A stretch of DNA of 10,667 bases. Origin: a candidate division TA06 bacterium DG_78 (GTDB lineage: Bacteria; Hydrothermota; Tepidihabitantia; SM23-42). Of this stretch, positions 2,035 through 10,667 are shown one piece after another. A program made the translations under genes and the position numbers. The DNA lies in NCBI GenBank assembly GCA_001303225.1, contig LJNI01000075.1:1-10667 (forward strand), written 5' to 3'. The notes beneath the pieces are model-generated. The model did no database searches and had not been told where the DNA came from. It saw only the letters and a program-made list of their open reading frames with translations. Positions within the stretch are counted from its first letter, which is position 1, and every line of letters starts with the position of its first letter.

Positions 2035-2871
2035 TTACTCCTTAAGTCCTGCCCGTGCATACGATTCCATTATTTGTTTTTGTACAAAGAAATAGAGGAT
2101 AATTAATGGCATGGTGGTAAATGTTGATGCAGCGCAGAGCAGAGGATAGTTGGTAGATTCAGCCTGTGCAAAATAGGCAAGCCCAGTCTGGATTGTCCGC
2201 ATCGAATCGGAGTGGGTAACAATCAATGGCCATAAAAATGAATTCCAATTAGTAACAATCTGGAATATGCCGACGGTTACTAACACTGCTTTTGAAAGAG
2301 GAAGGACTATGTTTTTAAGAATCTGGAGGTGATTTAAACCGTCGATTTTCGCAGCATCAAATAACTCTTGAGGGATCGTTTTGAAATGCTGTCGCAACAG
2401 AAAAATTGAAAAGATGTTAGTGCTCCAGGGAATTATGAGAGCAAGAAACGTATCGATCCAGCCGAGACGACTCAGAATGACATACGAAGGTACCAAATAG
2501 ACCGGGATTGGAATCATCATCATTGCCAAAAAGAGGGTAAAAAGCAACTCACGGCCATAGAATTTTAAACGAGCAAATGCATAGGCAGCCAGAGATGATG
2601 TCACAAAGACTAACAACGTTGTACTGATAGTCATAATGATCGTGTTCAGAAAGTATCGGGAGAAATCGACTTGCTTAAATGCCTCCACATAGTTCATAAA
2701 CTCAAATACCTCGGGTACAATATTTGGAGGGAATTTTAGTGCTTCCATTTGGGTTTTGAGTGAAGTGGAAACCATCCAGAAAAATGGCAGCAGCATCCAA
2801 ATCGCCCCGAGAATAAGTGCGATATGTATCAGTATTTTTGCATGTCTACCCCGTTGGAATGATGAAGTCAT
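2035..2871 (-). CDS. Carbohydrate ABC transporter permease, MalG type
   Basis: This is an inner-membrane subunit of a sugar-type ABC importer with six predicted membrane segments, the first being the I-A-L-I-L-G-A-I-W-M-L-L-P-F region near the N-terminus. The cytoplasmic EAA loop that docks the ATPase is clear: E-L-F-D-A-A-K-I-D-G, followed by N-I-V-L-P-L-S-K-A about 12 residues later. The length (278 aa) is normal for MalG-like subunits. A GTG at 2883 is in frame, but the AAAGGAG sequence overlaps it, so the ATG at 2871, about 11 nt after that site, is the better start. The partner permease lies 79 nt upstream. The substrate cannot be read from the permease, and no binding protein or ATPase gene is visible. 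Confidence 0.92.
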   Translation of the reverse strand: MTSSFQRGRHAKILIHIALILGAIWMLLPFFWMVSTSLKTQMEALKFPPNIVPEVFEFMNYVEAFKQVDFSRYFLNTIIMTISTTLLVFVTSSLAAYAFARLKFYGRELLFTLFLAMMMIPIPVYLVPSYVILSRLGWIDTFLALIIPWSTNIFSIFLLRQHFKTIPQELFDAAKIDGLNHLQILKNIVLPLSKAVLVTVGIFQIVTNWNSFLWPLIVTHSDSMRTIQTGLAYFAQAESTNYPLLCAASTFTTMPLIILYFFVQKQIMESYARAGLKE

Positions 2872-2950
2872 TTTTTCAGACACTCCTTTTCATTTGTATC
2901 TTCGGATATTAAAAATTCTAGAGAGGGTATATGTATATTTTCTACGGGGT

Positions 2951-3892
2951 CTATTCATAGTGTACTTTCTGTTCGATAAACCTTTTTTGCACGTGGGTTA
3001 AGAGAAAGATGATAATGAAAATAACAAACGCGATTGCATTAGCATAGCCAAGATTCCATAATTTAAATGATTGCTCATAGAGATAGTAGACAACGAGACT
3101 CGTGGTGCCGAGTGGACCACCTGGTGGTTGTGTCATGACGTACACAGGGGTAAAGGTATTGAATGCAATGATTGACTGGGTTATGAGTAAATAGAATATG
3201 GTTGGTGAAATTATAGGAATGGTAATATGTCGGAACATACTCCATCCCTTAGCTCCATCGATCTTTGCCGCCTCATAATATTGGGCTGGTACATTTTGTA
3301 AACCAGCAAGGGCGATGATGATACAGTAGCCAAGGTTATGCCATATTGCCATGATAATTAATGAGACAAGCGCGATTGATGGTCCAGCAAAGAATCCCGA
3401 TACGTTTATTCCAAGTGGTGCAAATATAGACTCGAAGATACCACGGGAATCGTTCAACCATCGTAGTCCTTCAAGACCTACGGCATGAAACAGTGCATTG
3501 AATATACCACGGTCTGGATTAAATATCCATTTCCATACAACAGATATCGCTACAATTGATGTGACAACAGGTAAATAGTAAAGTGTACGATAAATGCCAC
3601 GTCCCATGATTTTCTGATTCAAGAAATGGGCGAGAAATATTGAGATGATTATTGTTAACGGAACAACAAATAATACATACCAGAATGTGTTACTTAATGA
3701 CTGATAAAAGTTCGGATCGATGAATAGTCTCGTGAAATTTTTTAGCCCAATAAATTCTAATGGTCCAGCGATGCCCCAATTAAAGAAGCTCATTCTGACT
3801 GCCTGCAGTATAGGGTAGAGACGGAAAATGATAATAACGATGAGCGCTGGAAGAATAAAGAAGTAACCAGTAAGGTCTACCTTTTTACTCAT
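2951..3892 (-). CDS. Sugar ABC transporter permease, MalF/UgpA type
   Basis: This is the first of two permeases of a carbohydrate importer. The N-terminus starts directly with a membrane segment (G-Y-F-F-I-L-P-A-L-I), as in UgpA-like members, without the long extra domain of enterobacterial MalF. Further hydrophobic segments and the EAA loop (Y-Y-E-A-A-K-I-D-G-A, then H-I-T-I-P-I-I-S-P) at about residues 205-230 identify the family. The length of about 313 aa is typical. Start choice is uncertain: the ATG at 3892 is used here, but a TTG two codons upstream (3898) has GGGA at a better spacing. The gene sits between the oxidoreductase and the MalG-like permease, all on the same strand. Confidence 0.92.
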   Translation of the reverse strand: MSKKVDLTGYFFILPALIVIIIFRLYPILQAVRMSFFNWGIAGPLEFIGLKNFTRLFIDPNFYQSLSNTFWYVLFVVPLTIIISIFLAHFLNQKIMGRGIYRTLYYLPVVTSIVAISVVWKWIFNPDRGIFNALFHAVGLEGLRWLNDSRGIFESIFAPLGINVSGFFAGPSIALVSLIIMAIWHNLGYCIIIALAGLQNVPAQYYEAAKIDGAKGWSMFRHITIPIISPTIFYLLITQSIIAFNTFTPVYVMTQPPGGPLGTTSLVVYYLYEQSFKLWNLGYANAIAFVIFIIIFLLTHVQKRFIEQKVHYE

Positions 3893-3999
3893 GATCAATC
3901 ATATCCCATGAAAATTATCTGTCAAGATGAACTACACTACTGTTTATAACATCAACGTTAATTATTTTGGATTTAAAATGTATCGGTGTCCCTGGAAAT

Positions 4000-5103
4000 T
4001 TATTTTTTATTAATAATAATATTACGTTTTCGGAGTTCGGATTTTATGAATTGACAGATGTTCTTTTCCATTCCTAAATATTCAGGCGGTATAACACCAA
4101 AATGGGGGTAATTTTTTATACACTGTGTTATGACCGACCCAGTGTATGCAGTCATCCGTGCCATTGACGTGATATTATTTTTCCCATCGTAGTAATCCAC
4201 GCAACTGAGTCTCTTTTTTGTGCCGTTTTTCTCTAATTCGATAATCAAAATTGTGACGTCTTTTTTATCGCCCTTGCTTAATAGGTTCCTTAAAAATTCA
4301 AGATTTACATCCCGCAGTTTAACTAATCTTCTATTACACGGCACGAGTAGATCTGAAAAAAATCCACACTCGAGGATGGTCTGGAAGAGGTGGGCATGTC
4401 CTGGATATCGAATTGTTTTTTCTTCCATATTTTTTACATTTTTCATTGTCCTTAAAAGGGTACGTAGTCCATCAGTATGGAAACATTCGAGTCTGCCAAT
4501 TTTCGGAACCGCGAATTCCTCAATACCACTCAAAGGTTTTATCTGGGTGATTTTATAATTGCGAACTATTCTTGCCGGTCTCGTGTATGCTTCAATCAAA
4601 TCATCCAGAGACCAGGTCATATTATAATTGAATGGTGGCTGCGGTGATTGCGGTATTCCGCCGACCAAGACTCTTACTGTATCGAATCCTTCTAATTGTT
4701 GATATGCCTCACCAATCAGAATATTACTCAGACCTGGTGCAAAGCCAGCATCCGGAACAATCTTTATTCTTGCTTGCTGTGCTTTTTCGTGGAATGTAAA
4801 TGGGTCTTCTGGTGAATAGGATAAATCAATGAGATCAACGCCAGCTTTTAAACAACAATCCATTGTGTAAAAACCTAATGCTGCTGGTAGGGCTCCAACA
4901 ACAATATCAAACTTCTGTATTAATCTAATGAACTTAACTTTGCTTTTAACATCGAATTGTTGTGCCCTTACATTTACGATTTTTTTCAGCTGCCTGAGAT
5001 ACGTAATGTTGTTATCCAAGACAGTGACTTTGTGTTCGGCACACACGAGATCTTGAGCAATAACACTGCCCTGCATACCAGCACCAACAACACAAATATT
5101 CAT
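4000..5103 (-). CDS. Saccharopine dehydrogenase / lysine 6-dehydrogenase-like oxidoreductase
   Basis: This is a 367-residue NAD(P)-dependent oxidoreductase. The N-terminal Rossmann fold carries G-A-G-M-Q-G at residues 7-12 and an acidic residue ending strand 2 (V-T-V-L-D-N). It continues with the D-I-V-V-G-A-L-P segment and the family-typical P-D-A-G-F-A-P-G-L-S-N motif, which is characteristic of lysine 6-dehydrogenase and related saccharopine-dehydrogenase-family proteins. The C-terminal half contains Y-P-G-H-A-H in the position where this family has its conserved YPGH-type segment. Members act on lysine or saccharopine, or are uncharacterised, so the exact substrate is inferred only at family level. 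No other lysine-pathway gene is present. The start lacks a Shine-Dalgarno sequence, and a possible -10 box ends only 6 nt before the ATG, so the message may be leaderless. Confidence 0.85.
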   Translation of the reverse strand: MNICVVGAGMQGSVIAQDLVCAEHKVTVLDNNITYLRQLKKIVNVRAQQFDVKSKVKFIRLIQKFDIVVGALPAALGFYTMDCCLKAGVDLIDLSYSPEDPFTFHEKAQQARIKIVPDAGFAPGLSNILIGEAYQQLEGFDTVRVLVGGIPQSPQPPFNYNMTWSLDDLIEAYTRPARIVRNYKITQIKPLSGIEEFAVPKIGRLECFHTDGLRTLLRTMKNVKNMEEKTIRYPGHAHLFQTILECGFFSDLLVPCNRRLVKLRDVNLEFLRNLLSKGDKKDVTILIIELEKNGTKKRLSCVDYYDGKNNITSMARMTAYTGSVITQCIKNYPHFGVIPPEYLGMEKNICQFIKSELRKRNIIINKK

Positions 5104-5109
5104 AATACG

Positions 5110-5137
5110 AGTATATCCATATTTCAGAGAAAATCAA
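5110..5137 (-). promoter_or_regulatory. Candidate promoter giving a leaderless message for the oxidoreductase
   Basis: The minus strand shows TTGATT (complement of 5132-5137), 16 bp, then TATACT (complement of 5110-5115). The -10 box ends six bases before the ATG at 5103, so transcription would begin at or next to the start codon. This fits the absence of a ribosome binding site but remains a sequence match only. Confidence 0.4.
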
Positions 5138-5279
5138 CACATTTCTATGGTTGCACTGTATGTATGTGTGTATGGATTTTTTATTCTGCTTCGTTCGATA
5201 CGTCACTATGTGATAACTGAATTCTTGGCAAAATGTGATGAGTTGTTACTGCTGATGAATTCGTTAAGAGATCAATATG

Positions 5280-5305
5280 TCGAGCATTTTATATTTCTTG
5301 CTCGA
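5280..5305. repeat. Inverted repeat TCGAGCA...TGCTCGA
   Basis: Seven-base arms TCGAGCA (5280-5286) and TGCTCGA (5299-5305) are separated by 12 AT-rich bases. The repeat lies immediately left of the stronger terminator-like hairpin and may form part of the same transcription barrier. Confidence 0.4.
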
Positions 5306-5311
5306 AGGTAC

Positions 5312-5352
5312 ATGGGTAGGCCTTATGTGTATATGAAAGCCTACCCATTTTT
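5312..5352 (+). terminator. Terminator-like hairpin
   Basis: Perfect 10-bp arms ATGGGTAGGC (5312-5321) and GCCTACCCAT (5339-5348) enclose a 17-nt loop. The right arm runs into five T, which gives plus-strand terminator polarity. There is no plus-strand gene for it to serve. In the minus direction it would separate the peptide genes from the oxidoreductase gene, but it lacks a U tract on that side. Confidence 0.5.
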
Positions 5353-5418
5353 GTAGTAATTGCAGTATTCTATTTCGTTATCAACCGTTGTTTGTTATTC
5401 CTGAAACGTAGTAACTGG

Positions 5419-5508
5419 CTAGGGATTGTTCCCGTGGCATAGCATATCATCCACCTGGGTTATTATCTCATTTACTGGATCAGTTAGTAGATCTGTTAAA
5501 TAATTCAT
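5419..5508 (-). CDS. Short peptide gene 1 (29 aa), putative RiPP precursor with a C-terminal HGNNP
   Basis: A 29-residue peptide starts M-N-Y-L-T-D-L-L-T-D-P-V-N and ends M-L-C-H-G-N-N-P. The start is set by AAAGGTGG 5 nt before the ATG at 5508. The ATG and about 40 nt upstream are nearly identical to those of the neighbouring peptide gene, so the two arose by tandem duplication. Shared protein features are M-N at the start, L-x-x-D-P-x-N in the leader-like part, and the HGNNP motif. This copy has one HGN unit, one Cys, and an 11-residue insertion before the motif relative to its paralogue. Its place directly downstream of two radical SAM/SPASM genes and a sigma-54 promoter suggests a modified-peptide precursor. 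That role is inferred, as I know of no family for it. Confidence 0.6.
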   Translation of the reverse strand: MNYLTDLLTDPVNEIITQVDDMLCHGNNP

Positions 5509-5550
5509 GTTAACCACCTTTCTTTGATAACCTGTTTTTTGCTTTCGTAT
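5506..5550 (-). repeat. Duplicated leader/RBS unit, copy 1
   Basis: The start region of peptide gene 1 matches the start region of peptide gene 2 (5669-5712) over about 45 bp, differing by a few substitutions and one T indel. The shared minus-strand pattern is AAAAAACAGGTTATCAAAG, followed by an A-rich AAGGTGG ribosome binding site and TTAAC or TTAAT before the ATG. Confidence 0.8.
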
Positions 5551-5554
5551 GCCA

Positions 5555-5671
5555 TTATCCTCCCTGAGTAAAAACATTCGGAGGATCGTTTCCATGGGCA
5601 TCAGGAGGATTGTTTCCATGGCGTGTTAGATCGTTCGCTGGATCGCTTATGAGGTATAATAAAAGATTCAT
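5555..5671 (-). CDS. Short peptide gene 2 (38 aa), putative RiPP precursor with two HGN(N/D)PP repeats
   Basis: A 38-residue peptide begins M-N-L-L-L-Y-L-I-S-D-P-A-N-D-L and continues with R-H-G-N-N-P-P-D and A-H-G-N-D-P-P-N in tandem before N-V-F-T-Q-G-G. The start at 5671 is supported by AAGGTGG 5 nt upstream. The tandem motif is also visible in the DNA as two near-identical copies of about 20 bp at about 5578-5621. The peptide aligns with peptide 1 at its N-terminus and at HGNNP, while the C-terminal part differs in repeat number, as expected of a conserved leader and a variable core. It is the first real gene after the left sigma-54 promoter. Function and modification are unknown. Confidence 0.6.
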   Translation of the reverse strand: MNLLLYLISDPANDLTRHGNNPPDAHGNDPPNVFTQGG

Positions 5672-5712
5672 ATTAACCACCTTCTTTGATAACCTGTTTT
5701 TTGGTATCGTGT
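5669..5712 (-). repeat. Duplicated leader/RBS unit, copy 2
   Basis: This is the paralogous copy of the leader/RBS unit found at 5506-5550. The conserved stretch runs from the ATG up through the T6 tract on the plus strand (CCTGTTTTTTG) and a few bases beyond. It shows that the peptide gene was duplicated together with its translation-initiation region. Confidence 0.8.
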
Positions 5713-5774
5713 TTCTTCCCAGCCCCCGACTATGAATTTTCAACTTTTTTCAAGGACCCTCTTTCTTTCTCCGC

Positions 5775-5860
5775 ATTCTTTAAAATGCCGAGGGGTCAGG
5801 ACCGGAACCGAATATGTTCACAAAATGACTAAATATAAACGTTAATTCTATACACCCCCA
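5775..5860. repeat. Possible REP/RAYT-type extragenic repeat in the peptide leader
   Basis: The minus strand reads CGGTTCCGGTCCTGACCCC, containing the small inverted repeats CGG-TT-CCG and GGTC-CT-GACC, preceded by an AT-rich TTTAGTCATTTTGTGAAC stretch. Short GC-rich palindromic strings of this wording are familiar to me as dispersed intergenic repeats. No second copy is present here, so the call rests on recognition only. It accounts for part of the unusually long leader (about 300 nt) before peptide gene 2, compared with about 100 nt for the Cys-rich peptide. Confidence 0.35.
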
Positions 5861-5889
5861 GTATTGACTGAACCTGTTTTCAATAACAT
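5848..5889 (-). CDS. Possible 13-codon leader ORF
   Basis: A 13-residue frame (M-L-L-K-T-G-S-V-N-T-G-G-V) starts 7 nt after AGAAGGA, about 90 nt downstream of the left sigma-54 promoter's predicted start site. It could be a leader peptide, a remnant of a third precursor cut off by the adjacent repeat-like sequence, or chance. Only the well-placed ribosome binding site supports it. Confidence 0.25.
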   Translation of the reverse strand: MLLKTGSVNTGGV

Positions 5890-5917
5890 AATAATATCCT
5901 TCTTTCCCAAATGTTTT

Positions 5918-5934
5918 TAGCTAAAAAATAGCTA
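5918..5934. promoter_or_regulatory. Palindrome TAGCTA-N5-TAGCTA
   Basis: This 17-bp inverted repeat has 6-bp arms and a 5-bp spacer, the same 6-5-6 layout as the TAGGTA-N5-TACCTA sites upstream, but with C/G changes in the arms. It lies about 45 bp downstream of the predicted transcription start of the HGN peptide operon. It might be a second operator or a small RNA hairpin. The right-hand regulatory copy has no equivalent. Confidence 0.35.
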
Positions 5935-5988
5935 TCAAAGAAGTGTTAAAATCAGATTATAATTTTCTACTTCTCTCTATATGACATC

Positions 5989-6003
5989 GCAATATTTGTG
6001 CCA
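5989..6003 (-). promoter_or_regulatory. Sigma-54 (-24/-12) promoter of the HGN peptide genes
   Basis: The minus strand reads TGGCAC-AAATA-TTGC, a full match to the sigma-54 consensus TGGCAC-N5-TTGC with correct GG to GC spacing. Transcription would start near 5977. The aligned position in the right repeat carries an equivalent element, and a sigma-54 activator gene lies in the same locus. Confidence 0.85.
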
Positions 6004-6053
6004 GAAGGGGCTATTTTTGTTTGAAAAGTCTTGAAATTTAATGGATTTTCATG

Positions 6054-6084
6054 AGTATAATTCCAGATTTTGAAGGTGTGTCAA
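6054..6084 (-). promoter_or_regulatory. Alternative sigma-70-like pair conserved in the repeat (left copy)
   Basis: TTGACA (complement of 6079-6084) and TATACT (complement of 6054-6059) are separated by 19 bp, slightly longer than ideal. The same pair occurs in the right repeat. It may be a secondary promoter, or it may be conserved only because the whole segment is duplicated. Confidence 0.3.
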
Positions 6085-6087
6085 AAC

Positions 6088-6104
6088 TAGGTAATAAATA
6101 CCTA
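6088..6104. promoter_or_regulatory. Palindromic activator site TAGGTA-N5-TACCTA (left copy)
   Basis: The perfect 6-bp inverted repeat with spacer ATAAA is centred about 95 bp upstream of the -24 GG, near position -119. This is a usual distance for the enhancer site of a sigma-54 activator. Arms and spacing are identical in the right copy. Confidence 0.65.
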
Positions 6105-6153
6105 ATAAATCAGACCATTGCAAAATGTTCTGATTTTTCAATGAAGTTTAGTG

Positions 6154-7452
6154 TTATGAAACCCATTCACCCTTATCAGGTTGGTAAGTACACACAGCAT
6201 TATGTATTGATGGATCTTTTTTACGATAGTTTTCTGTAACCGCACAATCTACGCAAGCAAATCTAAATTCACATTCTTTACATTTAGGAACTTTCGTTTT
6301 ATTAAATGTCCAGTAGGGATCGAGCTTTTTATTTCTAAAAATAGACACTATATCATCCTTGGGAATTTTGCCTACTGGTTTCGTCAAGATTGGACAAGGG
6401 GAAATTATGCCATGACAAGAGATGGCAATAACGCCATGTAAACATCTACTAAAATGTTTTGCTTCCAAGAAATTTTTAGAATCAATTTTGCTAAAACGCT
6501 TTTCGCCCTGTTTTTCTCCAATCGGAAGGGCGGCCAAAGGCTTTTTGGCTCCTGCCTTTAGGAAGATTTCGCTATTACCTAAGAATACGCCCCCAAGATT
6601 TTTTGCAAACTGCTGGATTTTATCATAGTTATCATGAGATTCTGGACAGGTCAGTAGGGAAATACCATAAGTTATGTCATTCGCTTTACATAATTCTACT
6701 GCTTGGAGCAATGAATTGAATATTTCTTCTGAACCTGTTATTTTTTTGTATCCTTCACGAGAATCTGAAAAAACAGTAAAGTTAAATTGAATATTCAAAT
6801 TCTTTGCATCCTTTGCGATTTTTTCATTAAACCCGTAGCTATTTGTATTTACTATAGTTTTTATCGAAGATCGATGGTTAATTGCTTTTCTTACAATAGC
6901 AATAAGTTTATTCCATTCTAATAGAGGATTTCCACCAGAAAAGATCAAGGTATGAGTTTCCAGATCCGCCAATTGTTTTGTTAACATTCCAAAAGTTAAC
7001 TCATCAATATTTGAGGATTTTCTCTTTTGAGGCCATTGTAAACAAGTCACACAGCCAGCAGATACATAATAATCGCTACTGCCACAGAATAAACAATGTG
7101 CATTGCATTTATTATTGACTTGAATGTATGCCTTTTTTATTACTGGCGGTTGTTCAAAAAGTTGTTCCATTATATGAGATGCACTCGGTTCAAATGGTTC
7201 AGTATAAACTGGTGTCGGAAAGACTGTTCCAATACCTTCACCTATCAGCCGACTAAGCAGCTCCTTAGCAACCTTTGGATATTTTAATTCAACCGAATCG
7301 ATGCGTTCGTTTGCCAGCCAACGATTAACAATTTCTGTTTCAACTTTTGAAAGATGCATAATTTTTCCGAGCGTAATTTTATATATTGCTCCCCTTACTG
7401 GGCCACGAATATAATGACAATCTGGGAAAAAGCGGAAGTAAATCAGATCCAT
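6154..7452 (-). CDS. Radical SAM/SPASM peptide maturase, similar to SPASM enzymes of grasp-with-spasm systems
   Basis: This 432-residue enzyme is predicted to bind several Fe-S clusters and modify a peptide with radical chemistry. The N-terminal ~100 residues (Y-F-R-F-F-P-D-C-H-Y-I-R-G-P-V-R-G, then I-Y-K-I-T-L-G) resemble the substrate-recognition segment of SPASM partners in grasp-with-spasm clusters. The radical SAM core has C116-x3-C120-x2-C123 and F-S-G-G-N-P (171-176). The C-terminal SPASM region carries C337, C346, C353, then C391-x2-C394-x5-C400-x2-C403 and C421, and ends Y-Q-P-D-K-G-E-W. GGAG sits 7 nt before the ATG, and only 14 nt separate it from the upstream maturase stop, so the two are co-transcribed. 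No ATP-grasp partner gene is visible. The family resemblance is from recall of sequence pattern. Confidence 0.85.
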   Translation of the reverse strand: MDLIYFRFFPDCHYIRGPVRGAIYKITLGKIMHLSKVETEIVNRWLANERIDSVELKYPKVAKELLSRLIGEGIGTVFPTPVYTEPFEPSASHIMEQLFEQPPVIKKAYIQVNNKCNAHCLFCGSSDYYVSAGCVTCLQWPQKRKSSNIDELTFGMLTKQLADLETHTLIFSGGNPLLEWNKLIAIVRKAINHRSSIKTIVNTNSYGFNEKIAKDAKNLNIQFNFTVFSDSREGYKKITGSEEIFNSLLQAVELCKANDITYGISLLTCPESHDNYDKIQQFAKNLGGVFLGNSEIFLKAGAKKPLAALPIGEKQGEKRFSKIDSKNFLEAKHFSRCLHGVIAISCHGIISPCPILTKPVGKIPKDDIVSIFRNKKLDPYWTFNKTKVPKCKECEFRFACVDCAVTENYRKKDPSIHNAVCTYQPDKGEWVS

Positions 7453-7466
7453 TGAATTACTCCATA

Positions 7467-9053
7467 CTAGAACACGAGTTTTGTTTCTGGACGGTCAAAA
7501 AAATCTCTGAACCAGTCGAAGGCATCGGGGTTAACTTCTAATATTGAATAAGTCAAGGAAAGATATTCAGATAAATCAGACCGCAGGTCTTTACATCTTT
7601 CTTCGGGTATTGAAAACACACCATCTTGCATAGATTTTCCATCACCGTAGCAGGTTCGACATAATTTTACAACCGAACAAGATAGACATTTTTTACCTAA
7701 GGTCTCATTGTATTTTTTAATAATATCAGCAATCGCATTCCAATCAAGGCCAGTTTCAACATTCCCTATTGGCATGGTTTCGTTTACGCGTTCGCAAATA
7801 TCAAATGTTCCATCCACTCTTACGCTAATTTTTGCACCAGGAAGACAAGTGTTCGTAAAGGGGACTATATCTGGTCGCTTATCAAAGGCCTTTCGATGCC
7901 TGAAGAAAGTCCAAAAACTTGGACCACAAAAAACTTTCACAAAAATTGGGGAGTCTTTTCCCTTTAGTGAATCACTTACAAATCTTTGCATAATCTTAAG
8001 ACTTTGTTCATTAAACCCTTCTTTTTCTTCATTTGTAAATTGATCATAATAAGTGTCATCGTCGCCCCCTGGAAGAACTGCGTCAATAAATGTGAGGTTT
8101 GGTAGTGTAGATTTATTTTCTTCAAAAAAACGAATATTTGCTTCTAGATCTGTCCTCATATCGTATACACAGATAAGATGTATATGCTTCCTCAAATAAT
8201 GAGGATAACGGTCTAAAAACCTTTTTATATTGCTGTAAGCGATATCAAATGAACCTCGTCCGTTAATTGTTATTCTATTGCGATCATGATTTTCTTTACT
8301 ACCATCCAAACTTATTGCTATAAGTAGCTTATTATTGACTATGAAATCCGCAACTTCATCTTTTAATAATAAACCATTGGTCGTAATAAAAAAATCAAAC
8401 GGCAGGGGAGAATTTTTCTTGGCATGAGCTATTAATTTATCCATTGTCGATAAACAGAGAAATGGTTCTCCTCCATAAAAGTTGATGGCTAACCTTTTGC
8501 CTGGATTTCTCCGTGCGTGCTGTTCATTGAGTTTAAAAAAGTAATCCATTGCCTTTTTCCCTGTTTCCAATTTCATTTTACTTTTGCTCGGTTTTCGTGT
8601 ATACTTATAATAATCTGTATATATACAATACTTACATCTCAGATTACAGTCTTCAGTCAAATTTAGTACTAATTGTCGAAATGAAGACGGCTGGTCAAAT
8701 ATGTTTGCTTTAATGTCTTCCATCTTAAAAGATATCATGTTATGGTAGATATAAGATTTCTCTTGTGGGGTACTAAAAAATCCATTATAAATTCTATGCC
8801 ATCGTTCGATAAACTTCAGAGTGCCGTCAACAAAAATCTCAGGATATTCCTTTATTAACTTAGACCGTACATTATCTATATCGTACTTTGCATAAAGATC
8901 AATAGCTTTTTTTAACAATTCGTTGACCGGTAAAACAGCTCCAGATTTGTCGTCATAGATATATTCAGCATTATTTTGTAGACTTTTAAACAAAATTGTA
9001 CTATTACTTCTTGTTGTCATTTTATTCAGCCGATTATTTTTTTGTTTTAGCAT
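7467..9053 (-). CDS. Radical SAM/SPASM peptide maturase, candidate partner of the Cys-rich peptide
   Basis: This is a 528-residue enzyme of the class that forms thioether or other crosslinks in Cys-rich peptides. The N-terminal ~125 residues include A-E-Y-I-Y-D-D-K-S-G-A-V-L, the pattern seen at the start of SCIFF- and CXXX-type maturases. The radical SAM core has C136-x3-C140-x2-C143 (C-N-L-R-C-K-Y-C) and Y-G-G-E-P (193-197). The SPASM region has C376, C403, G415-x4-C420, C456-x2-C459-x5-C465-x2-C468 and C487, enough for two auxiliary [4Fe-4S] clusters. The N-terminus may start at the ATG at 9053 or 11 codons later, since neither has a good ribosome binding site. It follows the Cys-rich peptide gene across a stem-loop and is coupled to the second maturase. 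Confidence 0.9.
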   Translation of the reverse strand: MLKQKNNRLNKMTTRSNSTILFKSLQNNAEYIYDDKSGAVLPVNELLKKAIDLYAKYDIDNVRSKLIKEYPEIFVDGTLKFIERWHRIYNGFFSTPQEKSYIYHNMISFKMEDIKANIFDQPSSFRQLVLNLTEDCNLRCKYCIYTDYYKYTRKPSKSKMKLETGKKAMDYFFKLNEQHARRNPGKRLAINFYGGEPFLCLSTMDKLIAHAKKNSPLPFDFFITTNGLLLKDEVADFIVNNKLLIAISLDGSKENHDRNRITINGRGSFDIAYSNIKRFLDRYPHYLRKHIHLICVYDMRTDLEANIRFFEENKSTLPNLTFIDAVLPGGDDDTYYDQFTNEEKEGFNEQSLKIMQRFVSDSLKGKDSPIFVKVFCGPSFWTFFRHRKAFDKRPDIVPFTNTCLPGAKISVRVDGTFDICERVNETMPIGNVETGLDWNAIADIIKKYNETLGKKCLSCSVVKLCRTCYGDGKSMQDGVFSIPEERCKDLRSDLSEYLSLTYSILEVNPDAFDWFRDFFDRPETKLVF

Positions 9054-9099
9054 TATGTAACATAAGTATAGCTAAACACCAATGTTGTCAATTAGTTTA

Positions 9100-9140
9100 G
9101 CAGACCACGCGTAAGTCTACACAGACTTACGGTGGCCTGC
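9100..9140 (-). other. Stem-loop between the Cys-rich peptide and maturase genes
   Basis: The arms at 9100-9118 and 9123-9140 pair over about 18 bp around a 4-nt loop, with one bulged C and one G-U wobble in the minus-strand RNA. In the plus-strand RNA the wobble would be an A-C mismatch, so the structure suits the minus strand. There is no U tract, so a plain terminator is unlikely. It may protect the 3' end of the peptide message or partly block read-through, giving more precursor than enzyme. Confidence 0.75.
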
Positions 9141-9147
9141 TTTGTGG

Positions 9148-9396
9148 TTATCCAATTGCGTTGTTGGGACTAGTATAATCAACAGGATATATCCAACTCA
9201 CGCCTCTTACTGTCTGTCGACTTATACCAAACTGTACATCATTTTGTCCAGTTGCTAATGACTCGTATGGGAGTGCGCAAGCGGCAGCGCAAAGAACATC
9301 ACACGCTTCTCCACAGTCAGTTCCACAATCGGCACAATCCCACCAACCGACTGAATCACCATATGGAGGACCTTGGGCATATTGTTCTGGTAACAT
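9148..9396 (-). CDS. Cys-rich peptide (82 aa), putative radical-SAM-modified RiPP precursor
   Basis: A strong AAGGAGGT lies 4 nt before the ATG at 9396. The peptide begins M-L-P-E-Q-Y-A-Q-G-P-P-Y-G and has six Cys at 21, 24, 28, 32, 36 and 40: CX2C followed by four CX3 steps. They sit in an acidic, Ala/Gly-rich block that starts with W-W-D. About 42 residues without Cys follow, ending S-P-N-N-A-I-G. There is no signal peptide or membrane segment. Regular CXXX repeats and six-Cys blocks are known targets of SPASM maturases (CXXX-repeat and SCIFF-type peptides), and such an enzyme is encoded next. A metal-binding protein is the alternative. Unlike most RiPP precursors, the Cys block is central with a long tail, so the tail may be a follower or a separate region. 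Confidence 0.75.
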   Translation of the reverse strand: MLPEQYAQGPPYGDSVGWWDCADCGTDCGEACDVLCAAACALPYESLATGQNDVQFGISRQTVRGVSWIYPVDYTSPNNAIG

Positions 9397-9506
9397 GATT
9401 ACCTCCTTGTTCTTAACCTATATGTTCTTTTATATTCTTTCCTTGGTACTTTTAGCCACCAAAGAGTTGTTAAAGATCATATCAAAATTTTCTACTTTGT
9501 TATATT

Positions 9507-9521
9507 GCAATATCTATGCCA
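9507..9521 (-). promoter_or_regulatory. Sigma-54 (-24/-12) promoter of the Cys-rich peptide and maturase operon
   Basis: The minus strand reads TGGCAT-AGATA-TTGC followed by A. It differs from the consensus TGGCAC-N5-TTGC at one base and has correct spacing. The predicted start is near 9495, about 99 nt before the ATG at 9396. It aligns with the element at 5989-6003. Confidence 0.85.
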
Positions 9522-9573
9522 AAAGTATCAATTTTATGGACAGAAATGTCTTGAAATTTAGTGGGTTTTTATG

Positions 9574-9604
9574 GGTATAATTTTAGATTTTTAAGGTGTG
9601 TCAA
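9574..9604 (-). promoter_or_regulatory. Alternative sigma-70-like pair conserved in the repeat (right copy)
   Basis: TTGACA (complement of 9599-9604) and TATACC (complement of 9574-9579) lie 19 bp apart, as in the left copy, where the second hexamer is TATACT. The wide spacing makes promoter activity doubtful. Confidence 0.3.
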
Positions 9605-9608
9605 AAAC

Positions 9609-9625
9609 TAGGTAATAGATACCTA
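9609..9625. promoter_or_regulatory. Palindromic activator site TAGGTA-N5-TACCTA (right copy)
   Basis: The arms are identical to the left copy, with spacer ATAGA. The site is centred about 98 bp upstream of the -24 GG. It is the best candidate enhancer for the adjacent sigma-54 activator. Confidence 0.65.
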
Positions 9626-9745
9626 CTGAATCAGTCCTTTTATAGAATACTTCAATTTTTCAATCATTTGTGACATGTTACTCAGTGATTATTACTACAA
9701 ATAGCTGCGTATTTATCCTAAATCACGATTTTACTGGTTTTTTTG

Positions 9746-10667
9746 CTAGTAAGTTTTGGTGATCGAATACCTCTTAATTAAAGCCCTCAGAGTCTTTGGT
9801 GTGATACCTAATTCCTTTGAAGTATGGGTTATATTCCAATAATTGCGCATAAGGGCTTGTGTAGTGCTCTCCTTTTCCAAGTTTTCTTTCAATTCCTTTA
9901 ATGTTGTTGGTTCCTCAGCCTTTATTAGTACTAAACCAAGGTCGTTTTCATTAAGTTGCTGACCAGTACCCATAATAACAGCACGTTCAATACGGTGAAT
10001 TAATTCGCGTACATTTCCAGGCCATGGATGATGCATCATCGCCTCCATCGCAGTTTTGGTGAAACCAATAAATTTTCTTTGATAGCTTCTATTCGTCTGA
10101 CCTAAAAAATATTTACTGAGGACTTCAATATCTTCGGGTCGTTCTCTCAGTGGAGGTATATAAATTGTTGTAACACTTAAACGATAAAAGAGGTCTTTAC
10201 GAAAATTACCTTGTTTTATTTCATCCTCTAAATTTTTGTTCGAGGCCGCAATGATTCTGACATCAATATGTATCGGTGTCTTGCCACCAATACGATCGAT
10301 CTCCTTCTGTTCGATTGCTCGTAAAATTTTAACTTGTAGATGCAACGGCAAATCACCTATCTCATCAAGGAAAATTATACCTCCTTGGGCTATCTCGAAC
10401 TTTCCTTTATGCTGTTTATATGCTCCAGTAAAAGAACCCTTTTCATGACCAAAGAGTTCACTCTCTAATAGGTTATGAGGTATTGCTCCACAACTAACCA
10501 CCACAGGGGGTCTTTTTGACCGTGTACTCTCCTGATGAATAATTTTTGTAATGAGCTCTTTACCTGTGCCGGTCTCACCAGTAATCAAGAGCGTCGTATC
10601 TGTTCGAGCGATCTTTGATATCGTCTTCCTTATCTCATCAATCACCTTGGATTTTCCAATGAGTTCA
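9746..10667 (-). CDS. Sigma-54-dependent transcription activator, AAA+ and Fis-type HTH part (5' end outside the window)
   Basis: The frame is open to the window edge and the first residues read E-L-I-G-K-S, the usual start of the sigma-54 interaction domain. The GTG at 10645 is therefore internal and the gene continues to the right. The 306 visible residues carry Walker A GETGTGKE (30-37), the sigma-54 loop as GSFTGA (77-82, a Ser variant of GAFTGA), Walker B GGIIFLDE (95-102), the F-R-K-D-L-F-Y-R-L arginine-finger region, and a C-terminal Fis-like helix-turn-helix (S-K-E-L-G-I-T-P-K-T-L-R-A-L). It hydrolyses ATP to open sigma-54 promoters. It ends 82 nt from the right regulatory repeat and probably controls both sigma-54 promoters here. 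The N-terminal sensory domain is not visible. Confidence 0.95.
   Translation of the reverse strand, partial: ELIGKSKVIDEIRKTISKIARTDTTLLITGETGTGKELITKIIHQESTRSKRPPVVVSCGAIPHNLLESELFGHEKGSFTGAYKQHKGKFEIAQGGIIFLDEIGDLPLHLQVKILRAIEQKEIDRIGGKTPIHIDVRIIAASNKNLEDEIKQGNFRKDLFYRLSVTTIYIPPLRERPEDIEVLSKYFLGQTNRSYQRKFIGFTKTAMEAMMHHPWPGNVRELIHRIERAVIMGTGQQLNENDLGLVLIKAEEPTTLKELKENLEKESTTQALMRNYWNITHTSKELGITPKTLRALIKRYSITKTY

Follow-up and report, generated by a model that had tools for sequence, protein, structure and literature searches.

The closest described relatives of the system reported here are thuricin CD (TrnA/TrnB, TrnC/TrnD) and thuricin Z/huazacin (ThzA, ThzC/ThzD), published peptides of the two-maturase kind in which short Cys-rich precursors are modified by radical S-adenosylmethionine (rSAM) enzymes with SPASM domains. 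TrnC and TrnD are described as forming a complex in which TrnC is the catalyst and the rSAM cluster of TrnD, but not that of TrnC, is dispensable; in the same account TrnD has a truncated three-Cys SPASM domain and a recognition element (RRE) for ribosomally synthesized and post-translationally modified peptides (RiPPs) without a winged helix (PMC12093266). A review gives the Cys residues of huazacin as positions 4, 8, 12, and 16, forming four thioethers, and the layout of PapA as Cys-X3-Asp (PMC8172795), and an earlier mining of clusters resembling TrnC/TrnD is reported to have yielded 15 clusters in three phyla (PMC3132745). The DNA analyzed here (the window) is one entire contig, C164 (LJNI01000075.1, ending at position 10667), of the 2.09-Mb draft genome of candidate division TA06 bacterium DG_78 (GCA_001303225.1; given completeness 79.5%). 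Its minus strand carries a unit comprised of a sigma-54 activator, a Cys-rich peptide, two rSAM enzymes (A and B), a second promoter, and two peptides with an HGN motif. It is likely that this locus makes a sactipeptide-like RiPP of a divergent thuricin CD/huazacin two-maturase kind, switched by sigma-54 and with the HGN peptides co-induced; the product would probably be a sulfur-stapled peptide.

An initial sequence-only reading had listed a Cys-rich peptide gene with a strong ribosome-binding site, two tandem SPASM-type rSAM genes 14 nucleotides (nt) apart, a pair of short HGN-motif peptide genes, a sigma-54 activator gene, and a sigma-54 promoter before each peptide unit, and all of these were found. 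Both rSAM genes encode the CX3CX2C motif and the seven-Cys SPASM pattern. The window holds only two peptide units, with the HGN pair served by one common promoter ∼320 nt upstream of its first gene. The features are as follows.

9746 to 10666, minus strand: sigma-54 activator with AAA+ domain, lid, and Fis-type helix-turn-helix (HTH); 5′ end open, the N-terminal sensor part lying beyond the contig end.
9610 to 9624, no strand assigned: inverted repeat AGGTATCTATTACCT, candidate activator site, ∼103 bp upstream of the promoter of the Cys-peptide unit.
9507 to 9521, minus strand: sigma-54 promoter of the Cys-peptide/A/B unit, TGGCATAGATATTGC, pattern TGGCAYN5TTGC.
9148 to 9396, minus strand: Cys-rich precursor, 82 residues, Cys at 21, 24, 28, 32, 36, and 40; ribosome-binding site AAGGAGG.
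9099 to 9141, minus strand: strong hairpin in the gap between the precursor and A, stem of ∼19 bp, z −6.4.
7467 to 9053, minus strand: rSAM enzyme A, 528 residues, putative RRE-like N terminus, radical SAM domain, seven-Cys SPASM; TrnC/ThzC-like, best solved relative CteB.
6154 to 7452, minus strand: rSAM enzyme B, 432 residues, putative RRE-like N terminus, radical SAM domain, extra GCxxC after CX3CX2C, seven-Cys SPASM; TrnD/ThzD-like partner.
6089 to 6103, no strand assigned: inverted repeat AGGTATTTATTACCT, candidate activator site, ∼100 bp upstream of the HGN-unit promoter.
5989 to 6003, minus strand: sigma-54 promoter of the HGN unit, TGGCACAAATATTGC, pattern TGGCAYN5TTGC.
5555 to 5671, minus strand: HGN peptide 1, 38 residues, HGN twice (HGNNPPDA-HGNDPPNV); ribosome-binding site AGGTGG.
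5419 to 5508, minus strand: HGN peptide 2, 29 residues, C terminus HGNNP; ribosome-binding site AGGTGG.
5313 to 5348, no strand assigned: hairpin downstream of the HGN unit; z of the stretch −2.9.

As in thuricin CD, two different rSAM-SPASM enzymes with putative RRE domains adjoin each other beside a short Cys-rich precursor, and A resembles TrnC in its seven-Cys SPASM domain. The best family models for A were those of sactipeptide or Cys-rich-peptide maturases, CcpM (219 bits; 218.8), GG_samocin (202), and RumMC (179); PapB gave a score as well (132). As its scores are well under the curated cut-offs, A is a relative, and not a member, of the CcpM and RumMC maturases. The best model for B was SPASM_w_grasp, a weak match of 65 bits. 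A search of 5.8 billion proteins, in which the window's own proteins are counted, returned 10 relatives of B at E 1e-20 and 430 of A at the stricter cut-off of E 1e-30. Two of the relatives, the B proteins P0122 and P0123 from metagenome contigs, show 86% and 70% identity. Equal lengths of the longest contig suggest that in four cases a B protein is encoded together with an A protein (contigs of 49134, 13947, 2953, and 28443 bases); two of these contigs belong to this genome and one to a metagenome-assembled genome of Bacillota.

An alignment of 27 B proteins revealed that the seven SPASM Cys and Cys137 are invariant (27/27), with CX3CX2C present in 26 and Cys134 nearly invariant. The conservation of Cys134 and Cys137 gives the B family an extra CxxC soon after the rSAM motif. 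The single protein that has lost CX3CX2C (L093:7470–8702, Coriobacteriales) keeps both the extra CxxC and the SPASM Cys; judged by these residues it is a putative natural pseudo-rSAM partner, as expected of a noncatalytic partner, and its loss fits the published dispensability of the TrnD rSAM cluster. AlphaFold2 models were obtained with a predicted confidence (pLDDT) of 84 for A and 91 for B. Both N termini are predicted to be RRE-like, with helices coming after strands as they do in RRE domains; the strands and helices modeled in B resemble a standard RRE, in contrast to the RRE without a winged helix described for TrnD. With Foldseek, A matched CteB (E 1e-20, TM 0.6 of the query) and B matched SuiB, SkfB, and CteB (E ∼1e-12 to 1e-10, TM 0.45–0.53).

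The distribution of the tandem pair was examined in species genomes scanned with an alignment of A, where the best 80 of at least 479 confirmed stretches gave 79 distinct loci. The 93 loci examined comprise 78 of these 79, 13 of 14 from a search of the window's phylum, a locus of Ruminococcus albus, and a second cassette of the DG_78 genome (contig C132), with the near-duplicates L051 and L107 left out. A B-like gene lies directly downstream of A in 29 of the 93 (at least 130 bits; 28 by script and L061, whose A frame is broken, by hand), of which 18 had contributed to the model and 11 had not. The 130-bit threshold was chosen after the score list had been seen, the top non-adjacent open reading frame (ORF) at 123 bits being the A-type ORF of locus L090 itself; a looser rule of E 1e-5 gives 35 of 93, and the weak extra pairs (23–117 bits) are labeled as single in the tree. 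Pair loci occur in Bacillota, Actinomycetota, Chloroflexota, Aminicenantes, the window's own class (L046), and five archaeal loci. Within the window's phylum, B was found in two of 147 genomes (this one and G116) and an A-like enzyme, at E 1e-40, in 15, leaving 13 genomes with an A-like enzyme but without B. The archaeal pairs are in methanogen-type loci (L067, L070, L072, L073, and L077), with a short Cys-rich ORF upstream in L067, L070, and L073 by a strict rule and in L072 by a looser one.

A tree of A built by a "quick" method contained 97 rows (the window, those 83 of the 93 loci that passed a length filter, and 13 database proteins), in which the long branches of L061 and L079 are unsafe. 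The pair label requires 7 changes on this tree, compared with 25.9 when shuffled. The window's A falls in a 40-row clade (SH-aLRT branch support 95) comprised of 26 pair rows, 13 protein-only rows, and one single. This clade also contains the locus of the R. albus plasmid pRUMAL03, which is annotated with two huazacin-family (HuaA) precursors, A, B, an ATP-binding cassette (ABC) transporter, and a CPBP/CAAX-type protease. The R. albus precursors pass the HuaA model, and a pair locus of Aeribacillus also has a HuaA-type precursor. The models for the R. albus A rank CcpM (230), RumMC (194), and GG_samocin (179), with SPASM_w_grasp (56 bits) best for its B, largely the families found for the window's enzymes, and in a plasmid collection, where B matched three records, R. 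albus was the sole match over most of the length. The assignment of A as TrnC/ThzC-like and of B as TrnD/ThzD-like was made through this huazacin locus and not through the TrnC, TrnD, ThzC, or ThzD sequences themselves. The sequence-only reading had not recognized the combination as a described class; since A and B fall within a tandem-pair clade that holds a huazacin-family locus, and both thuricin CD and thuricin Z/huazacin are published, that claim is not sustained. What is new here is the sigma-54 switch, the host phylum (probably WOR-3, which NCBI now names Caldifarciminota), precursors with six to nine Cys, the extra CxxC in B, and the pair of orphan HGN peptides.

When the genome was searched with A, one close paralogue, 60% identical, was found in the second cassette. 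On contig C132 the end of a TPR-like frame (by eye) is followed by a sigma-54 promoter, a precursor, A′, B′, and an exporter. The coordinates on C132 are as follows.

355 to 369: sigma-54 promoter, one of the 29 genome sites with the pattern TGGCAYN5TTGC.
416 to 712: precursor, 98 residues, nine Cys.
895 to 2436: A′, 60% identical to A.
Ending at 3766: B′, 57% identical to B.
3839 to 5710: ABC transporter (exporter) with membrane and ATPase domains.

The second cassette thereby matches the precursor-A-B-ABC transporter order of thuricin Z/huazacin and R. albus. Five of the six Cys in the window's precursor are spaced every four positions, as in huazacin. Neither precursor of this genome matches the HuaA family (NF037972), and phylum and regulation also differ from thuricin Z/huazacin; compared with thuricin CD, the precursors have six and nine Cys against three. 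The gap between precursor and A contains a hairpin in both cassettes (z −6.4 in the window and −3.7 on C132), unrelated in sequence, an arrangement that might favor a surplus of precursor mRNA. By the strict rule, 15 of the 29 other pair loci have a short Cys-rich ORF preceding A. The Cys half of the expected co-occurrence of maturases and peptides therefore stood, and on present data the HGN half did not, no HGN peptide being found in the stretches searched around these pairs.

A −24/−12 site stands in the window with an AAA+ activator gene beside it, the arrangement of a sigma-54-dependent unit. The pattern TGGCAYN5TTGC occurs at 29 sites in the genome, compared with six for the reversed control pattern, and two window sites in these intergenic positions are consequently very unlikely to be due to chance. 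The blocks upstream of the two window promoters are 76% identical over ∼180 bp, and each contains a TAGGTA-N5-TACCTA inverted repeat ∼100 bp upstream of the promoter. As AGGTAN5TACCT occurs seven times in the genome against four for its control, and not at all on the second cassette's contig, the repeat is only a candidate activator site and a weak regulon marker. An AT-rich promoter element resembling AAATTTCAAGACTTTT was rejected as regulon-specific, because its like is also seen (by eye) in front of a number of further sigma-54 sites in this genome. Several of the 29 sites precede genes for secreted repeat-like, pilin-like, and glutamate-dehydrogenase-like proteins (by eye), and some of those other sites have a common upstream sequence of the GACTTAAGTGT type, which suggests another activator regulon.

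The usual form of the sigma-54 activator motif is GAFTGA; in the window's activator it reads GSFTGA. The activator has five close paralogue places in the genome at 64–74% identity, one of them just 82 residues long. The complete paralogue that was scanned has GAF-GGDEF-AAA+-HTH architecture and the one on contig C83, which is cut by the contig end, GGDEF-AAA+-HTH. On contigs C122 (L147:4554–10615) and C126 (L148) a Ser/Thr kinase-AAA-TPR gene lies directly upstream of a GAF-type sigma-54 activator gene, a recurrent arrangement. On contig C83 (L145:3071–5842) the paralogue (72%) is followed by two sigma-54 promoters and a 73-residue ORF with three Cys; the ORF gave no family match, and no rSAM gene was found on this 5.8-kb contig; the arrangement is a possible third peptide unit. 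It is reasonable to infer a sensor-linked sigma-54 activator family controlling small peptides.

Outside this genome, locus L084 (Aminicenantes) has the sole relative of the activator found by tblastn among loci L042–L134 (45% over 246 residues). Its order (4531–8831) is sigma-54 activator, sigma-54 promoter, Cys-rich peptide, A, B. The activator is a 365-residue open frame (4531–5628) with a sigma-54 activation domain and lid, the promoter is a perfect site, TGGCATGAGAGTTGC, at 5711–5725, the only one on either strand of the 13.4-kb locus, and the Cys-rich peptide has 60 residues (5752–5934). On sequence criteria, therefore, a putative sigma-54 switch is recurrent beside A-B pairs in two phyla. 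Over the whole of the 29 pair loci and both strands, five sigma-54 sites were found against one for the reversed pattern; because 27 of these loci lack a strict site in front of A, sigma-54 control is a local variant and not part of the definition of the pair. No paper on sigma-54 control of an rSAM RiPP, or on a sactipeptide in WOR-3, was found in a literature search that was thin in subscription journals, the sole match to RiPP, sigma-54, and radical SAM being an Aneurinibacillus genome paper. The proposal of one regulated peptide-modification system is supported for a RiPP cassette build under sigma-54 control, repeated at C132 and L084, and unproven for the HGN peptides as a second substrate.

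A number of observations weigh against the reading of the locus as a sigma-54-switched, sactipeptide-like cassette of the thuricin CD/huazacin kind. Of the 29 other pair loci, just two (L084 and C132) carry a strict sigma-54 site on the coding strand no more than 1 kb ahead of A. Four of the 30 pair rows (L046, L061, L084, and L099), among them L084 with its sigma-54 parts, sit outside the 40-row clade, within a 53-row parent clade (support 98). The scores of A are far under the curated cut-offs (219 of 500 for CcpM, TIGR04068; 179 of 720 for RumMC), and although homology to the R. albus enzymes extends over 96% (A) and 94% (B) of the query, identity is just 30% and 23.5%, respectively. The window's precursor matched no Pfam family above cut-off and no NCBIfam family up to E 1, the precursor of the second cassette matched no RiPP family model and no NCBIfam family up to E 1, and the strict rule revealed no Cys-rich ORF in 14 of the 29 other pair loci. 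The window, cut short at the activator by the contig end, contained neither an exporter gene, a further difference from thuricin CD along with the sigma-54 control, nor a protease gene. The RRE-like assignment draws on how predicted strands and helices follow one another and on whole-chain matches to RRE-bearing maturases, and the whole-chain TM values of B against the listed chains are low (0.33–0.54 of the query). Moreover, B has a full seven-Cys SPASM domain, unlike the three-Cys domain described for TrnD, and may itself be catalytic. ThzC and ThzD are each reported to be active alone in a review (PMC8172795), so the A/B division of labor may vary. Finally, an alpha-carbon linkage is not distinguishable by sequence from other thioethers.

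The likely operation of this sactipeptide-like cassette is as follows. The sigma-54 activator, probably with a GAF-GGDEF-type sensor N terminus, would turn on the two promoters together. The six-Cys precursor would be on one transcript and, owing to the hairpin that separates it from the maturases, would probably be made in larger amounts than they are. A and B would bind the leader as a heterodimer via their RRE-like domains, and A, with three [4Fe-4S] clusters by its Cys pattern, would abstract alpha-hydrogens in the C-terminal half of the precursor and join those residues to Cys, so that up to six nested, huazacin-like thioethers would form. The main part of B would be to hold the leader and activate A, the part that TrnD plays for TrnC. 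The HGN peptides would be co-induced from the duplicated promoter, most likely as a separate small secreted or signaling peptide and not as the main substrate.

The two HGN peptides have MN-L--L--DP-N and HGNNP in common, and over 22 paired codons there are 8.5 synonymous changes per 14.2 sites against 12.5 non-synonymous changes per 51.8 sites, which, for a small codon sample, favors the genes being coding. Neither peptide matched a Pfam or NCBIfam family, a search of the protein database came back with nothing but the peptide itself (P0131), and a literature search found no paper containing the HGN motif. None was found in the stretches around the 29 other A-B pairs or on the 13,947 bases of C132, and the HGN peptides were accordingly rejected as part of the second cassette; in the databases and stretches searched, their conservation beside maturases of other genomes was not observed. 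The search of the DG_78 genome's own sequence with HGN peptide 1 missed HGN peptide 2, which shows that this method does not pick up peptides so short. As a DNA pattern, HGN[ND]P has five matches in the genome, three of them the window's, and HGN[ND]PP has matches in 10 of the 147 genomes (nine besides this one) against one for the reversed control; an expectation of ∼10 chance matches, which assumed equal base use, was not borne out by that control. In the nine outside contexts there is neither an MN-L--L--DP leader nor, over 700 nt, a sigma-54 site, and three of the nine matches lie in ATG-started ORFs of up to 61 residues (L158, L162, and L164). From these comparisons the HGN peptides are best described as putative co-regulated orphans.

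On a narrow preference, then, they are co-regulated but separate from the Cys peptide, acting as a signal, immunity, or stress peptide, or being the product of enzymes elsewhere in the genome. Their own promoter and their absence beside other pairs in the stretches searched are consistent with this, as is contig C83, where a paralogue of the activator precedes a sigma-54 promoter and an unlike 73-residue ORF; on the strength of that unit the activator family may control small peptides more widely. This reading has no known candidate partner, the peptides lack family matches, and neither has an evident signal sequence (by eye).

The bonds themselves could be of another type. CteB is the maturase of a SCIFF peptide, a family now counted as ranthipeptides, and with CteB as the best solved match of A and a PapB model at 132 bits, thioethers to the beta or gamma carbon are conceivable. 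The CcpM, GG_samocin, and RumMC models score higher, however, the pair resembles the huazacin type, and Cys every four residues with a separate acceptor half is the layout of huazacin and not the Cys-X3-Asp reported for PapA; ranthipeptide-type bonds are thus unlikely.

Rather less probable again is one system with two substrates, in which A, with or without B, staples the Cys peptide and B, or A and B together, modifies the HGN peptides, for instance through a His-Gly-Asn crosslink. Cyclophanes can form at aromatic-X-Asn motifs. The upstream block and inverted repeat of the Cys-peptide unit recur at the HGN unit, peptide 1 contains HGN more than once in the way of multi-core precursors, all changes between the copies in the His, Gly, and Pro codons of HGNNP are silent, and B, keeping CX3CX2C in 26 of 27 proteins and the seven SPASM Cys in all, is on these residues probably an active enzyme. 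Set against this are the absence of an HGN peptide from the second cassette and from the stretches around other pairs, the database search that returned only the peptide itself, and the nine outside contexts without leader motif or sigma-54 site. A role as second substrate is unproven, with support limited to the common promoter block and the intact active-site Cys of B, and its fullest version, in which B (or A and B) crosslinks the His-Gly-Asn repeats while A staples the Cys peptide and one activator co-induces a two-component product, is a shade more doubtful still. A further reading, in which the Cys-rich peptide stays unmodified and serves in metal binding or structure while A and B act on other substrates, agrees with the lack of a RiPP family match but is very improbable given a second, unlike Cys-rich peptide in the same slot before the second A-B pair and Cys-rich ORFs preceding A in 15 of 29 pair loci.

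Downstream on the minus strand, at 4000–5103 and 2035–3898, lie a saccharopine-dehydrogenase-like gene and two genes resembling sugar-type ABC permeases (by eye), which have no evident tie to the peptide unit. An Rfam scan gave nothing at gathering thresholds and one chance match (E 0.74).

The assignment of the locus as a divergent two-maturase cassette places peptide stapling of the thuricin CD/huazacin type in an uncultured bacterial phylum. If all Cys are used, the six and nine thioethers of the two cassettes of this genome would exceed the four reported for huazacin. The extra CxxC of the B family, together with its complete SPASM set, offers a testable handle on why two maturases stay together, and the finding, in two phyla, that a cassette of this kind has a sigma-54 activator gene and a sigma-54 promoter next to it points to a new mode of control.

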